Below, piece after piece: positions 45,901 through 64,000 of a stretch of DNA of 64,000 bases. The notes under the pieces were generated by a model. It saw only the letters and a program-made list of their open reading frames with translations. It was not told where the DNA came from and did not search any database. The translations under genes were made by a program, and so were the position numbers. The stretch is from Terriglobia bacterium (lineage in GTDB: Bacteria > Acidobacteriota > Terriglobia > Bryobacterales > Bryobacteraceae): contig JANXYJ010000076.1 of the NCBI GenBank assembly GCA_025350105.1, positions 1 through 64,000 of the forward strand, in the 5' to 3' direction. The number at the start of each line of letters is the position of its first letter. Positions within the stretch are counted from its first letter, which is position 1.

Positions 45901-46129
45901 GCCCGGTTACGTTTCGACGGACTTCTCGCTGACCAAAGACACCAAAGTGAACGAGCGCCTCAGCGTGCAGTTCCGCGCTGAGCTCTTCAATCTTTTCAAT
46001 CACACTAATCTGGGCTTGCCCACAGCAGGTGCTTTCACGGCCTCTGGTGTTGCTGGCAACGCCGGGACCATCACCACCATCATCGGCAACTCACGCCAGA
46101 TTCAATTTGGATTGAAGCTGCTGTTCTAA
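42992..46129 (+). CDS. TonB-dependent receptor, Oar-like, with carboxypeptidase-regulatory domain
   Basis: 1045 residues from ATG 42992 (GAGGAAAAC upstream; a longer reading has no support). A signal peptide (LAWFAGLLSLAFSLTFLATL) precedes a carboxypeptidase-regulatory-like Ig domain (AAVSGTVLDTSGAAIPAAAI). The plug follows (MRELPLNGRNFEQLVLLAPG, GAVINAATKSGTNSVHGSVYD), then a long beta-barrel ending RQIQFGLKLLF, with a C-terminal Phe as in outer-membrane proteins. This large type dominates Acidobacteriota genomes; ligands are mostly unknown, polysaccharides or peptides suspected. It has its own promoter and a strong terminator. Confidence 0.93.
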   Translation: MKSRLAWFAGLLSLAFSLTFLATLATVGAVRINAQGATAAVSGTVLDTSGAAIPAAAIEIRNTGTGVKRETTSDGQGRYSIPDLPIGDYQIQGAKMGFQTVVQKGITLDVGRAPVIDLRLPVGQAEQTVNVESTVSQVETTTSAVSSLVNQTQMRELPLNGRNFEQLVLLAPGAVAYTAGPVSALIGRNATFSVAGARPEGAAILLDGENLQNWWQRGSGAGVTATSLGIEAIAEFQTLTNTYGAEFGGNGAVINAATKSGTNSVHGSVYDFLRNNKLDARNFFESFVAPGDTTAHAAPFRKNQFGGSVGGPIKKDKLFFFGNYEGIRQLQGVTSKNFVPTAAGRAAATATMAPVVALYPFPTVDLGNGTGYLFQTANQTAQEDYFLGRVDYVMSDKDSIFFRYLSDRGYLTNPGVNALPLWPTYDNSKNQFVTLQDRHIFSSTLVNAFSTSFSQPTTGEIQPPTAATSVLQIFPGQNRQDTAIGVPGLTSLGAGIVSNFQYTQNKFTQSDDLIWTKGSHTIKIGAKLRNQRLNYLTTNQYNGNWNFSSLALFLAGTAASVTYVPPGGANGRRHWSDTALAPYIQDDWKVSRRLTLNFGIRYEWQSNPTEARNLAHNIINPPFGTFDAVPHAFVTNPNTKNWDPRVGFAYDVFGDHKTSLRGGFSINHDPYQTYVYNSAYGISAPYVLLTAGITTFPTGITTAAGGLVSTTNGTDYNIRTTPYQIQWNMNIQRELTKGGVLTVGYIGSRGVHLLAFHDFNPPTATKDANGVYHFGHPVVTNGVTTTVVNARINPALSTIDELDPLSSSKFHGLQTSFNQRFGNSFQGSVSYMFSKCTDQGYTYAGLGGNAGSSALTNPYDFSIDQGLCVTNIKHNLVVNALYRLPFHGNRLKDGWQITGIETYRTGLPYTITTGFDQTLISNSFDQTRPNVVAGCDITANQSVTHWFNPACFSLQDKGTIGNAGRSIGTSPGYVSTDFSLTKDTKVNERLSVQFRAELFNLFNHTNLGLPTAGAFTASGVAGNAGTITTIIGNSRQIQFGLKLLF

Positions 46130-46147
46130 CTCTGTATAATTAGTCCG

Positions 46148-46230: not shown

Positions 46231-47016
46231 ATGCGGCATCGTTTTGTTTTCGGATTCTTGATTCTAGCGTTAGCAGATCTTGCCTGGTCACAGGCTGCTT
46301 ATCGCGCTCCTCGCGCTCCAGACGGTCATGCCAATCTCAGCGGCATCTGGCAAGCCATCGGCACCGCCAATTCCGATTTGCAGGATCACTCCACCTACGG
46401 CGGGCCGTATTTCCAAATGGGTGCGCTGGGCGCGGTGCCCTCGGGCCGTGGTGTGGTGGAAGGCGGAGATATTCCATACAAGCCGGAAGCCTTGACCAGG
46501 AAGAAAGAAAACTTTACGAATCGTTGGAAACTTGATCCCGAAGTGAAGTGCTATATGCCCGGCATCCCGCGCGCTACTTACATGCCGTTTCCATTTCAGA
46601 TTGTGCAGTCGGGTCCGGTCATCTTGATGGCCTACGAATACGCCAGCACCAATCGTGTGATCAACATGGGCAAGCCGATGCCCGCTGCGGTGGACACCTG
46701 GATGGGCACCGCCAACGGCCATTGGGAAGGTGACACGCTGGTGGTAGACAACACCGGTTTCAACGACCTCAGCTGGTTCGATCGTGCCGGCGATTTTCAC
46801 AGCGACGCGCTGCATGTGGTGGAGCGCTTCACACCCATTGACGCGACCCACCTGAACTACGAAGCGACCATCGAGGATGCGCAGACCTTCATGCGGCCCT
46901 GGAAGATCAGCTTGCCGCTCTATCGTTTGTTGGATAAGAACGCGCAATTGGCCGAGTTCAAATGTGTAGAATTCAGCGAGGAACTGCTGTATGGAGATTT
47001 GCGCAAAAAGAAATAG
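46231..47016 (+). CDS. Secreted protein of an uncharacterised 'GHWEG' family, copy 1
   Basis: 261 residues from ATG 46231; a GTG at 46207 is an alternative that would spoil the signal peptide. The signal is RHRFVFGFLILALADLAWS. The mature part opens GHANLSGIWQA. Conserved landmarks shared with the next gene and, in the first half, with the gene at 63558 are CYMPGIPRATYMPFPFQIVQ and the core NGHWEGDTLVVDNTGFND followed by HVVERFTPID. I do not know a function for this family, which is widespread in Acidobacteriota and Proteobacteria as exported proteins. It lies just after the receptor terminator and overlaps the next gene by 26 bases. Confidence 0.75.
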   Translation: MRHRFVFGFLILALADLAWSQAAYRAPRAPDGHANLSGIWQAIGTANSDLQDHSTYGGPYFQMGALGAVPSGRGVVEGGDIPYKPEALTRKKENFTNRWKLDPEVKCYMPGIPRATYMPFPFQIVQSGPVILMAYEYASTNRVINMGKPMPAAVDTWMGTANGHWEGDTLVVDNTGFNDLSWFDRAGDFHSDALHVVERFTPIDATHLNYEATIEDAQTFMRPWKISLPLYRLLDKNAQLAEFKCVEFSEELLYGDLRKKK

Positions 47017-48052
47017 CCTGCTGGTGCTGCTGACGGCTTGGCTGGCCGCCGTCGCCGTTGCGCAAGTTCCCAAAAAGAACTGGACGCCGCCCAAAACGTC
47101 CTGGGGCGATCCTGATTTTTACGGAACCTGGACCAGCGACGACATGCGCGAAGTCCCCTTCGAACGCCCCGCGCAATTCGGCACGCGGCGTTTTTTGAAT
47201 GACCAGGAACTCGCCGCCCGCGCGAAAGAAGTTGACGACACCATCAGCGGCGTAGTCGAAAAAGGTATCCGCCCCAATGCTGGATATTGGGCCCGTCAAC
47301 AAGGCGTGAACGCCGCCGCCGCTCCGCCCAACTGGCAGGAGTTCAGCCGCCGCGCTTCCAATCAAACTTCGTTGGTTGTCGATCCGCCTGACGGTCGCGT
47401 TCCCGCATTGACGCCCGAAGCCCAGGCCCTTCGCACGTCCATAAATGTATTGCGCAATCGCCGTCCCGAAACCTGGACCGTCCGCAGCATGTACGATCGC
47501 TGCATCACCCGCGGCGTCGCCGGCTCGGCGTTTCCGGTGATCTACGGCAACGGAACGCAATTCATCCAAATACCGGGCCTGGTAGCGATTCGTTACGAGA
47601 TGATCCACGAAACGCGGCTGATCCCGATTGATCTTCCGAGTGCCCCTCGTCCCCACGCCCCTGCCGGCTACCGCACCAACATGGGTGACGCCCACGGCCA
47701 TTGGGAAGGCAACACGCTGGTCGTCGAAACCACCAACTTCCTCGGAGGACGCAACGGTGTCGGCGGCAACGGCAACGGAGCCGCCCCTTACAGCGACGAA
47801 CTCAAACTGGTCGAACGCTTCACTTGTGTTGGTCCCAAAAACATTCAGTACGAAATGCGTGTGACCGATCCCAAAACCTACACCGCCCCCTGGACCGTCG
47901 CGTTTTCGCTCACCCAGGAAGATGGCTACCAGATTTTCGAATATGCCTGCCACGAAGGCAACTACGCCATGCACAATCTCCTAAGCGCCGCCCGCGCCGA
48001 AGACCATGCGGACGAGGCAAAAGAAAAAGCAAAAGCAAAAGCCGGGAAATAG
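46991..48052 (+). CDS. Secreted protein of the uncharacterised 'GHWEG' family, copy 2
   Basis: 353 residues. The signal peptide is NSLLVLLTAWLAAVAVAQ. Landmarks are DPDFYGTWTSDDM near the start (compare NLSGIWQA), CITRGVAGSAFPVIYGNGTQ, the core HGHWEGNTLVVETTNFLGG, and ELKLVERFTCVGPKNIQYEM. The C-terminus has an acidic/Lys-rich tail (DEAKEKAKAKAG) after YACHEGNYAMHNLLSAAR. It is longer than copy 1 by an insert before the Cys motif. The start overlaps copy 1, suggesting cotranslation and joint action. Function unknown. Confidence 0.75.
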   Translation: MEICAKRNSLLVLLTAWLAAVAVAQVPKKNWTPPKTSWGDPDFYGTWTSDDMREVPFERPAQFGTRRFLNDQELAARAKEVDDTISGVVEKGIRPNAGYWARQQGVNAAAAPPNWQEFSRRASNQTSLVVDPPDGRVPALTPEAQALRTSINVLRNRRPETWTVRSMYDRCITRGVAGSAFPVIYGNGTQFIQIPGLVAIRYEMIHETRLIPIDLPSAPRPHAPAGYRTNMGDAHGHWEGNTLVVETTNFLGGRNGVGGNGNGAAPYSDELKLVERFTCVGPKNIQYEMRVTDPKTYTAPWTVAFSLTQEDGYQIFEYACHEGNYAMHNLLSAARAEDHADEAKEKAKAKAGK

Positions 48053-61530: not shown

Positions 61531-62685
61531 TCATTGCTTATTGAACTTCGCCGCGTCGATCGGCACATTCGTCTTGACGTCGGTAAGTTGAAACGAATCC
61601 TTACCGTCCAGCCACGAGAACGTGTATTTGAAAGGAAACTTGATTCCGCCCACGTCGCGATAGTCGGAATAATCCGTTTGCGTGGGCACGCGGCCCACCG
61701 GGGACTTACCATAGCGGACCATCCGCACCAGCAGCCCGGAGGGCTTTTCGAAGTACATCGTAGCCAGCAGGCCGTTGGATCCGGTGCCCTGGACCACATC
61801 AACGTCGTTGCCGTTAATGCTATCGGGATTGCCTGCCCGCAAATTGGTCAGCACTTGCTTGATCTGCGCCGGAAAGGCCAGTTGCGCTTCCAGCCGTTGC
61901 CCATCTAACTCGCTGCCCACAACGTCATATTGTCCCAACAGACCGCGCGGCGATTTAATCCAGCCCGCGGTGCCGTTGTAGGAGCGGATGTTTTCGCCAC
62001 GTTCCGGGTGGTCTTTAAATACAATCTGAACCGAGCGCCGGTCGGGCGACTGGGCCAGGATTTGGAACACGCCGCCGCCGCCCAATCCTTCGTAGCCTGC
62101 GCTGGTGCCCGTGGCGATGAAACTCTTCAGGCCAGCCAGTTTCTCCGCCCCGCCGAGCGCCTGAATATACTTGTCTAAAATTTGCGTGGCGGAAGCTCCG
62201 GAGGTGACAGGCGCGACAATATCGTCTCTTTCATCATTCGGCGTGCCGTAGAGTGCATCCAGCGCAATTGTCGTGGAGGGGCGAAGGCGGCCGTGATGGC
62301 AGGTGAAGCAGGTGACCATTTGTGCTCCGCCAAAATTAGTGCGGTTAATGTTGGCCACCATTTCCACCATTCGGCGCGTGGTTCGCTTCCGGGGAGTATC
62401 AATCACCCAATCCACACTGTCTGAGCCAGCGCCCGGGTGGCAGTCTGCGCAATCCAGCCCCAAATCCGCCGAGATCGCGCCCATGGCTCCCAGGAAATCG
62501 TCAACCACCAATCCCTTCAGCGTGCTGGTGGTGACGTTCTTGAACGCTTCGCTGGCAATCTTGGCCTTAGCCGCCGATGCTTGCGCGGCCTGCGCAGCGG
62601 CCCGCTGGACCAGGACTGTGCCCGTCGCTCCGGCGAGAAAAAGTACGATTCCCGAAACTACCAACGATCTGGACCGCAACGTCAT
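61531..62685 (-). CDS. Two-heme cytochrome c related to reaction-centre cytochrome subunit
   Basis: 384 residues; GGGAGG stands 8 bases before ATG 62685. The signal peptide is SLVVSGIVLFLAGATGTVLV. Residues about 45-140 carry two c-heme sites, CADCH (Cys79-Cys82-His83) and CFTCHH (Cys126-Cys129-His130), with the intervening MVEMVANINRTNFGG resembling the CytC_RC fold of photosynthetic reaction centre cytochromes. The C-terminal 220 residues are a different domain, mostly beta (ILDKYIQALGGAEKLAGLKS, YSDYRDVGGIKFPFKYTFSW), similar to outer-membrane lipoprotein sorting (LolA/B-like) folds. No photosynthesis genes are visible. Its role is presumably periplasmic electron transfer. Confidence 0.83.
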   Translation of the reverse strand: MTLRSRSLVVSGIVLFLAGATGTVLVQRAAAQAAQASAAKAKIASEAFKNVTTSTLKGLVVDDFLGAMGAISADLGLDCADCHPGAGSDSVDWVIDTPRKRTTRRMVEMVANINRTNFGGAQMVTCFTCHHGRLRPSTTIALDALYGTPNDERDDIVAPVTSGASATQILDKYIQALGGAEKLAGLKSFIATGTSAGYEGLGGGGVFQILAQSPDRRSVQIVFKDHPERGENIRSYNGTAGWIKSPRGLLGQYDVVGSELDGQRLEAQLAFPAQIKQVLTNLRAGNPDSINGNDVDVVQGTGSNGLLATMYFEKPSGLLVRMVRYGKSPVGRVPTQTDYSDYRDVGGIKFPFKYTFSWLDGKDSFQLTDVKTNVPIDAAKFNKQ

Positions 62686-62980: not shown

Positions 62981-63388
62981 ATGCGAAAACACTCGATTCT
63001 TTTGATTGCCGGTCTATTCGGCTTGTCCCTGGGCCAGGCGTTTGCTCATCACTCTTTTGCCGCGGAATACGATTCCAATAAGCCCGTTACATTGAAGGGC
63101 ACCGTCACCAAGATGGAGTGGATGAATCCCCACGCCCGCTTCTATATCGATGTGAAGGATGAATCGGGCACTGTGACCAATTGGGAGCTGGAACTGGGCA
63201 GCCCCAACGGCTTGATGCGCCGCGGTTGGACCCGCAGTTCCCTGAAGCCGGGTGATGCCGTGTTGATTGAAGGCTATGCCGCCAAAGACGGCGCCAAGCT
63301 GGCCAACGCCCGGAATGTCACGCTGGCCGACGGCCGTAAGGTGTTCGCCGGTTCCGACGAAACTCCAGGCGCCAAGGAAGCAAAGTAA
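62981..63388 (+). CDS. Small secreted protein, DUF6152 family
   Basis: 135 residues. A signal peptide (HSILLIAGLFGLSLGQAFA) is cut just before HHSFAAEYD, the invariant start of this family, which is probably metal-binding through the His pair. The rest is an OB-like small barrel: VTLKGTVTKMEWMNPHARFY and WELELGSPNGLMRRGWTRSS, LKPGDAVLIEGYAAKDG. Function unknown. In many genomes the gene stands beside exported proteins like the next one. Confidence 0.82.
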   Translation: MRKHSILLIAGLFGLSLGQAFAHHSFAAEYDSNKPVTLKGTVTKMEWMNPHARFYIDVKDESGTVTNWELELGSPNGLMRRGWTRSSLKPGDAVLIEGYAAKDGAKLANARNVTLADGRKVFAGSDETPGAKEAK

Positions 63389-63557: not shown

Positions 63558-64000
63558 GTGAAGAAGAATAGCTTCCCCTTGTGGCTTGCCGCCGCGCTGG
63601 CAAGCGCAACATTGGTTCTGGCGCAGGCTCCGGTGAACGCGCCTGAAGCGGATACGCCAAAGGCCGCGAAAAAGGCCGATGCCAAACCAGCACCGCGCTT
63701 GGCCGATGGCAAGGTCGATTTCGGCGGAAAAGGTGTATGGGCTCCGATCTGGGTGCTCGATTGGGCCGACCAGAAATGGGTAGACAAGAAAGTGGATGTA
63801 CCTTTTACCGCCTGGGGCCTGGAGAAGTTTAAAGAGCGGCGCGCGAATAACTCAAAGGACGACCCGGAAGGTTACTGCCTCCCGCCCGGGGTGCCGCGCT
63901 ACACCGGTACGCCATATCCTTTCCAAATCATCCAATTGCCGGATCGCGTGGTGATCCTTTATGAAGGCGCTTCGCACATGTACCGTGTCATCTTCATGGA
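63558..64000 (+). CDS. Secreted protein of the 'GHWEG' family, copy 3 (cut by window end)
   Basis: 147 residues visible. GTG 63558 has CAGGAG 7 bases upstream; a nearer ATG at 63551 is out of frame and stops at once. The signal peptide is FPLWLAAALASATLVLAQ, followed by an Ala/Lys/Pro linker. CLPPGVPRYTGTPYPFQIIQ aligns with the Cys motif of the 46231 protein, and the following VVILYEGASHMYRVIFMD matches its AYEYASTNRVINMG segment. The 'GHWEG' core would lie just past the window. It is 169 bases after the DUF6152 gene, possibly cotranscribed. Confidence 0.75.
   Translation, partial: MKKNSFPLWLAAALASATLVLAQAPVNAPEADTPKAAKKADAKPAPRLADGKVDFGGKGVWAPIWVLDWADQKWVDKKVDVPFTAWGLEKFKERRANNSKDDPEGYCLPPGVPRYTGTPYPFQIIQLPDRVVILYEGASHMYRVIFM

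Follow-up and report, generated by a model that had tools for sequence, protein, structure and literature searches.

A very large, unnamed family of apparently exported bacterial proteins, predicted to form calycin-like barrels and, in one branch, often encoded as pairs with DUF6152

Introduction

Proteins of the calycin superfamily are closed antiparallel beta-barrels of 8 to 10 strands that carry the signature GxW on the first strand. Some calycin-type folds are catalytic, including those of allene oxide cyclase, phenolic acid decarboxylase, and nitrobindin, and in Vibrio the VtrA/VtrC barrel is heterodimeric, with two partial proteins building one barrel. Here, we describe a bacterial family, designated the GHWEG family, whose members are predicted to form barrels of this general kind. 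Three members are encoded in the window, by which we mean the whole 64,000-nucleotide stretch of Terriglobia bacterium DNA that was analyzed. The family is very large, unnamed, and, from the appearance of its N-termini, exported, with more than 100 copies in some genomes.

Family members in the window

The initial annotation of the window described 2 overlapping genes for an uncharacterized exported family, P0001 and P0002, and a third copy near a DUF6152 gene. The open reading frames of the pair, with their coordinates and their 26-base overlap (46991–47016), were found as described (Table 1). The 2 sequence blocks that had been read as common to the pair, GHWEG(D/N)TLVV(D/E)xTxF and ERFT...YE, are both spanned by a local alignment with 52 identical positions, while the alignment of P0001 with the window-cut third gene has 30 identities in about 68 columns and contains the motif C-xxPG-xPR...PFQI(V/I)Q by which the third copy had been recognized. 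In a search of the whole genome with P0001 as a single query, P0002 scored E 8.9e-15 with 35% identity and the third gene E 6.3e-35 with 44%, and since P0001 alone yields these values, the similarity of the 3 proteins is homology rather than chance. The values from an iterated profile, 1.3e-56 and 1.2e-25 for P0002 and the third gene, come from a profile that already included these sequences. The signal peptides proposed for all 3 agree with signal-peptide-like N-termini judged by eye.

Table 1. Positions of the window's features considered in the text
Feature	Position	Strand	Remarks
CarboxypepD_reg/OMP_b-brl_4 outer-membrane receptor, upstream neighbor of P0001	42941..46129	+	Terminator between receptor and pair
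Intrinsic-terminator-like hairpin, then U run, between receptor and P0001	46147..46189	+	−32.2 kcal/mol, z −4.75 (folding)
P0001, GHWEG family type A, 261 aa	46231..47016	+	Signal-peptide-like N-terminus; calycin-like barrel predicted
P0002, GHWEG family type B, 353 aa	46991..48052	+	26-base overlap with P0001
CytoC_RC-type cytochrome, two CxxCH, beside DUF6152 gene	61531-62685	-	Pfam
P0004, DUF6152 protein, upstream of third GHWEG-family gene	62981..63388	+	Signal-peptide-like N-terminus; predicted OB fold
GHWEG-family third gene	63558..64000	+	Cut by window end; whole on contig, open frame 276 aa

A terminator had also been placed between the upstream receptor and the pair, and folding does detect a strong hairpin there; a terminator scan did not return it, as its rule takes loops of 3 to 8 bases only. 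A promoter-like TTGAAG-17-TATAAT lies at 46112–46140, inside the 3' end of the receptor gene and just 5' of the terminator, and is no more than shuffled sequences give. The next gene after P0002, on the opposite strand, encodes a VOC protein; the idea that VOC might be a conserved neighbor finds no echo among the 25 commonest flanking families listed elsewhere. Past the window, the same contig holds 2 more family members (C55:72700-73461 and 74801-75535).

Size, spread, and age of the family

The supposition of one real family holds. The family is uncharacterized: at E 0.01, Pfam-A matched 0 of 80 members and NCBIfam 0 of 52. PHROGs gave no match to the 3 window members, and a PDB sequence-profile search with profile A1 returned nothing at E 5. 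Two phage coat proteins at E 1.6 in the PDB search with profile A3 were regarded as chance, with no credible relative among the results, and a YAcAr match of P0002 (Pfam E 0.086, under the cut-off) was likewise taken as chance. Whole-text literature searches on DUF6152, DUF6644, and the family's motif strings found no paper, and in the portions of the literature accessible to broader searches, no paper was recognized as dealing with the GHWEG family. Annotated sphingomonad plasmid genes that lie under family matches are labelled "hypothetical protein."

The repetition first noticed within the window extends through the 4.7-Mb genome it comes from, which has at least 126 matches at E 0.001 to a 52-row family profile (150 of 174 candidates were scored; a few genes are split in 2 matches, and the counts on the 126 use them unmerged). 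With P0001 as a single query there are 86 matches at E 0.01 or better, and in 64 stretches of this genome (the window and 63 others) the domain is present in 105 ORFs of distinct sequence, among which the third copy figures twice, as cut and as whole. The closest paralog of P0001 in its own genome is only 64% identical, which indicates that the expansion is old and that the copies have diversified.

In a draw of 297 genomes from the phylum, at least 38 have a match; no more than 9 candidates were scored in any one genome. Fourteen further genomes, picked for known hits rather than at random, have 4 to 137 matches. Eight are of the same phylum (87, 48, 129, 113, 97, 66, 44, and 28 matches, the first 2 from the same genus), and the others are Pseudohongiella (15), a gammaproteobacterium (4), a gemmatimonadete (5), a Rhodospirillaceae metagenome-assembled genome (MAG) (75), the Proteobacteria MAG UBA1148 (137 in 2.6 Mb), and a Luteitalea MAG (60). 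Three of these 14 counts are lower bounds, 150 of 213, 169, and 160 candidates having been scored, and the names are those of the records, many of them metagenome-assembled and possibly mislabelled. Record titles of P0001 relatives name Acidobacteriota, gammaproteobacteria, gemmatimonadetes, and an alphaproteobacterial MAG. The family has 48 to 137 matches in 9 of the 14 further genomes and is invisible to the curated annotation libraries tested.

Paired type A and type B genes

P0001-like loci were taken as the best 80 of 582 confirmed candidates, from named genomes and with the pattern GHWEG[DN]TL; their genes were called by a simple longest-ORF procedure, and many of the genomes are MAGs. 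Seventy-three of these loci have more than 1.5 kb of sequence downstream (the 7 of 80 with 1.5 kb or less were excluded), and at 56 of the 73 a second family member follows the P0001-like gene on the same strand within 700 bp. The chain ends with a DUF6152 gene at 43/73 loci, both a second member and DUF6152 are present at 38/73, and DUF6152 occurs within 5 kb on either strand at 54/73. Conversely, a second member is lacking directly downstream of 17 of the 73 P0001-like genes, and for 30 of the 73 no DUF6152 gene closes the chain.

The identity of the followers is informative. On a tree of 220 tips, the 80 P0001-like genes and P0001 fall within one 87-tip clade (support 0.996), a grouping that is partly by construction, its members having been picked for similarity, whereas the followers were picked by position only. 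Fifty-eight followers were found and 54 passed the tree's length and score filter; all 54 lie inside the separate 114-tip clade of P0002 (support 1.0) and none in the P0001 clade, and 5 of the 6 best relatives of P0002 are such followers. Because all the followers placed on the tree group with P0002, the window pair is a recognizable copy of an old two-gene unit, with P0001 (type A) and P0002 (type B) as representatives of 2 old subfamilies that are often co-encoded. The window pair has no DUF6152 gene behind it, and the same is true of 18 of the 56 pairs elsewhere. Pairing is a trait of the P0001/P0002 branch rather than of the whole family, since in the window's own genome a same-strand neighbor from the family lies within 500 bp for only 37 of the 126 member matches, and for 43 of the 126 there is no member, DUF6152, or metallo-beta-lactamase-fold (MBL) gene within 700 bp.

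DUF6152, MBL-fold proteins, and other neighbors

DUF6152 had been put forward as a candidate conserved neighbor, and the window's own genome bears this out. Of its 34 DUF6152 copies, 26 have a member within 500 bp, and for 25 of these 26 the nearest member is on the same strand. The expectation is 4.0%, the share of the genome that is this close to a member; it supposes uniform placement and takes no account of gene clustering. MBL-fold (Lactamase_B) genes are within this distance in 24 of 65 cases. In these linkage counts second ORF pieces were merged or dropped and matches below the Pfam cut-off were dropped, which kept 34 of 34 rows for DUF6152, 65 of 67 for Lactamase_B, 52 of 69 for OMP_b-brl_4, 9 of 10 for DUF6644, and 32 places from 54 rows for PQQ dehydrogenase.

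On a tree of 100 domains from this genome, the MBL label needs 8 changes vs 23.3 when shuffled (minimum 18), and the DUF6152 label needs 15 vs 25.9 (minimum 19). In one clade with a support of 1.0, 24 of 30 tips adjoin or are fused to an MBL gene; this divergent clade of the family goes with MBL-fold proteins instead of DUF6152. Natural fusions involve both partners. There is one DUF6152-member fusion (n = 1), a single ORF with one signal-peptide-like start (L070:5445-6620), and there are 7 member-MBL ORFs; among the 5 tested on Pfam, Lactamase_B was above the cut-off in 2, below it in 1, and absent in 2. Cassettes of the order member-MBL-member, or fusions, of the divergent clade occur at L077:5024-6823, L074:4920-6740, L064:3448-4386, and other loci.

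The DUF6152 gene in the window matches PF19649 at E 2.7e-33 (114.4 bits, with a cut-off of 27). Three histidines, H23, H24, and H51, are invariant in an alignment of 71 copies from the 80 loci, the third of them in an NPH motif. The HH pair is found in all 82 DUF6152 ORFs of the 80 loci, mostly as AHHA or AHHS, and stands directly after the hydrophobic segment in 12 sequences examined. We infer that cleavage of the window's protein after AFA would leave HH as the mature N-terminus. Its model (pLDDT 85.7) is OB-fold-like, with a best Foldseek E of 1.4e-3 and a best Z of 9.2 to PriB, and on this predicted fold the invariant histidines are a possible metal site.

Other flanking genes are diverse and name no substrate. 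PQQ dehydrogenase genes (2/32 within 500 bp of a member) and DUF6644 genes (0/9) are not above expectation in the window's own genome, but PQQ genes and DUF6644 pairs do occur at some loci elsewhere. Among the 25 commonest families listed for each side of members elsewhere, so that all figures are lower bounds, PQQ and Cytochrome_CBB3 are each found for at least 4 of 75 nearest upstream proteins and CytoC_RC for at least 3 of 74 nearest downstream proteins (one of 75, of 1786 aa, having been excluded). CytoC_RC-like genes are also near members at loci L030, L041, and L068 of the window's own genome (identified by Pfam for the window's gene and that of L041). Pairs of small DUF6644 membrane proteins adjoin the cassette in several bacteria, at L121:8445-9562 (by Pfam), L126:8597-9839 (by clustering), and L165:9014-9989 (by record annotation). 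One cluster of large proteins recurs near members (L040:4253-6628, L060:713-3133, L066:5802-8207, and L082), and the L060 protein, the sole one scanned, combines DUF1592/1588/1585/1587/1595 domains with one of the cytochrome c type. Neighbor cluster 1, whose positions lie opposite members, was taken as an antisense-ORF artifact and left unused.

Predicted fold and conserved residues

The AlphaFold2 model of P0001, built from 80 aligned sequences (pLDDT 91.8, pTM 0.86), has 9 strands of 3 or more residues. All 50 matches listed in a Foldseek search of the PDB are of the fatty-acid-/retinoid-binding type (FABP/CRBP), the best at E 8.7e-4 being the single match listed under E 0.001, and a viral structure library gave no match under E 0.001. 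In a second structure comparison with the PDB, the 50 matches listed are FABP/CRBP-type, NanoLuc, and secretory abundant heat-soluble (SAHS) protein chains, the best with a Z of 8.9 over 120 residues aligned at 3.4 Å, covering most of the target barrel; according to the tool, Z values of 7 to 8 are common for models without a clear match, and 8.9 is little higher. The match of the predicted fold to FABP/calycin barrels is modest, and weak in absolute terms, but consistent.

The GxW feature is present in P0001, with G38 and W40 on the predicted first strand (38–42) and conservation in 2 alignments of 0.98–1.00 and 0.92–0.97, respectively. C107 and C245 co-occur in 50/52 and 79/80 alignment rows, which suggests a disulfide between these near-invariant cysteines. 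Near-invariant residues on predicted strands or turns are R142, S161, W165, E198, and D216. No histidine is near-invariant in the family alignments (H164 is at 52–69%), and heme binding by the barrels was rated low because of this.

Proposed function and alternatives

The best explanation that we can offer, to which we give roughly an even chance of being right, is that these proteins are exported calycin-type barrels that bind hydrophobic ligands and, in this branch, do so as A/B pairs in concert with DUF6152. It starts from what the analysis shows, namely the family itself, its copy number, the A/B pairing of P0001-like genes, the partners, and the fusions, joined to a fold that is predicted only, and to these it adds export, the disulfide, ligand binding, and physical contact of A, B, and DUF6152 by inference. 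Each member would be an exported FABP-like beta-barrel with a partly helical insert after the first strand, braced by the C107–C245 disulfide (P0001 numbering) and holding a small hydrophobic molecule. Type A and type B barrels would act as a pair with the exported OB-fold DUF6152, the divergent clade would work with an MBL-fold hydrolase instead, and each paralog could be tuned to a different small molecule. As no DUF6152 gene is directly behind the window pair, this pair may depend on a copy located elsewhere, one of the genome's 34 (e.g., that at 62981), or act alone.

A more elaborate form of this proposal is a periplasmic machine in which A and B barrels present a hydrophobic substrate to a DUF6152 metal centre. 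The HH at the mature N-terminus of DUF6152 and the third invariant histidine would form this centre, possibly with copper and histidine-brace-like, on the OB fold; soil and aquatic bacteria would hold tens to more than 100 versions that differ in the organic compound to which they are tuned, and a parallel clade would feed MBL-fold hydrolases. We consider this full scheme decidedly unlikely. If the barrels do bind ligands, as in the simpler proposal, the family would amount to a large uncharacterized repertoire with which Acidobacteriota and some proteobacteria recognize small molecules, and the A-B-DUF6152 cassette, which recurs, is a concrete three-gene unit for expression and testing.

The barrels could instead be enzymes themselves, their many copies being diversified periplasmic enzymes. 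The 5 near-invariant residues on predicted strands and turns are perhaps more than a pure binder needs, the expansion has proceeded without recent duplication, and the redox neighbors at some loci (PQQ, Cytochrome_CBB3, and CytoC_RC) would suit such a role. However, NanoLuc luciferase is the sole enzyme among the PDB matches listed, Pfam, NCBIfam, and the PDB profiles provide no sequence link to any family, and the fusions with MBL domains and with DUF6152 suggest an accessory role, all of which makes a catalytic role for the barrels themselves unlikely.

The initial annotation favored periplasmic handling of a compound imported via the adjacent TonB-type receptor. A receptor does adjoin the pair in the window; a Croceibacterium plasmid has a receptor and a member as immediate neighbors, and on a Sphingobium plasmid about 3 kb lies between the two. 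Of the 52 OMP_b-brl_4 places in the window's own genome, however, 3 have a member within 500 bp, 6 within 1 kb, and 11 within 3 kb, compared with genome shares of 4.0%, 5.9%, and 12.5%; consistent linkage was not found among these 52 places, and the counts are close to uniform expectation, with no clear enrichment. Few receptors figure among the nearest neighbors listed elsewhere (OMP_b-brl_4 and TonB_dep_Rec_b-barrel for at least 2 each of 75 upstream proteins, Plug for at least 2 of 74 downstream), and 11 ORFs similar to the window's receptor occur, as far as 10 kb off, at 9 of 80 loci. With a strong terminator dividing receptor and pair as well, their adjacency in the window looks incidental, and we regard this import-handling role as very unlikely. 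What endures of that earlier picture is a single repeated, uncharacterized family, exported by inspection and linked to DUF6152; its tie to TonB-receptor import is not supported.

A role in protecting the envelope or in desiccation tolerance, as in the tardigrade SAHS proteins with their FABP-like fold, is most improbable: the fold matches include SAHS chains 5xn9 and 5z4g (each at Z 8.2), and many Acidobacteriota MAGs that carry the family have record titles suggestive of soil, but strict sequence invariants, A/B pairing, and domain fusions point to a specific biochemical role, and the titles of other records, including one of the North Sea K189A clade, are not of soil.

Comparison with known systems

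Returning to the proposal of ligand-binding barrels, the closest counterparts are the FABP/CRBP proteins and the wider calycins, which have in common with the GHWEG family a predicted beta structure that aligns with most of the FABP barrel and a GxW on the first strand. Unlike FABP/CRBP proteins, GHWEG-family members are bacterial, have a signal-peptide-like N-terminus, an insertion of about 80 residues after the first strand, and a conserved Cys pair, are often encoded by A/B-paired genes, and have no detectable sequence similarity to them. DUF6152 (PF19649), a frequent neighbor and in one case a fusion partner, is like the family exported by inspection, but it differs in predicted fold (OB-like) and is not homologous. 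In the bile-salt receptor VtrA/VtrC of Vibrio, the periplasmic parts of 2 bacterial proteins make up a calycin-like ligand-binding barrel. P0001 and P0002, by contrast, each appear from prediction to contain a complete barrel domain, and in neither was a membrane or DNA-binding domain recognized.
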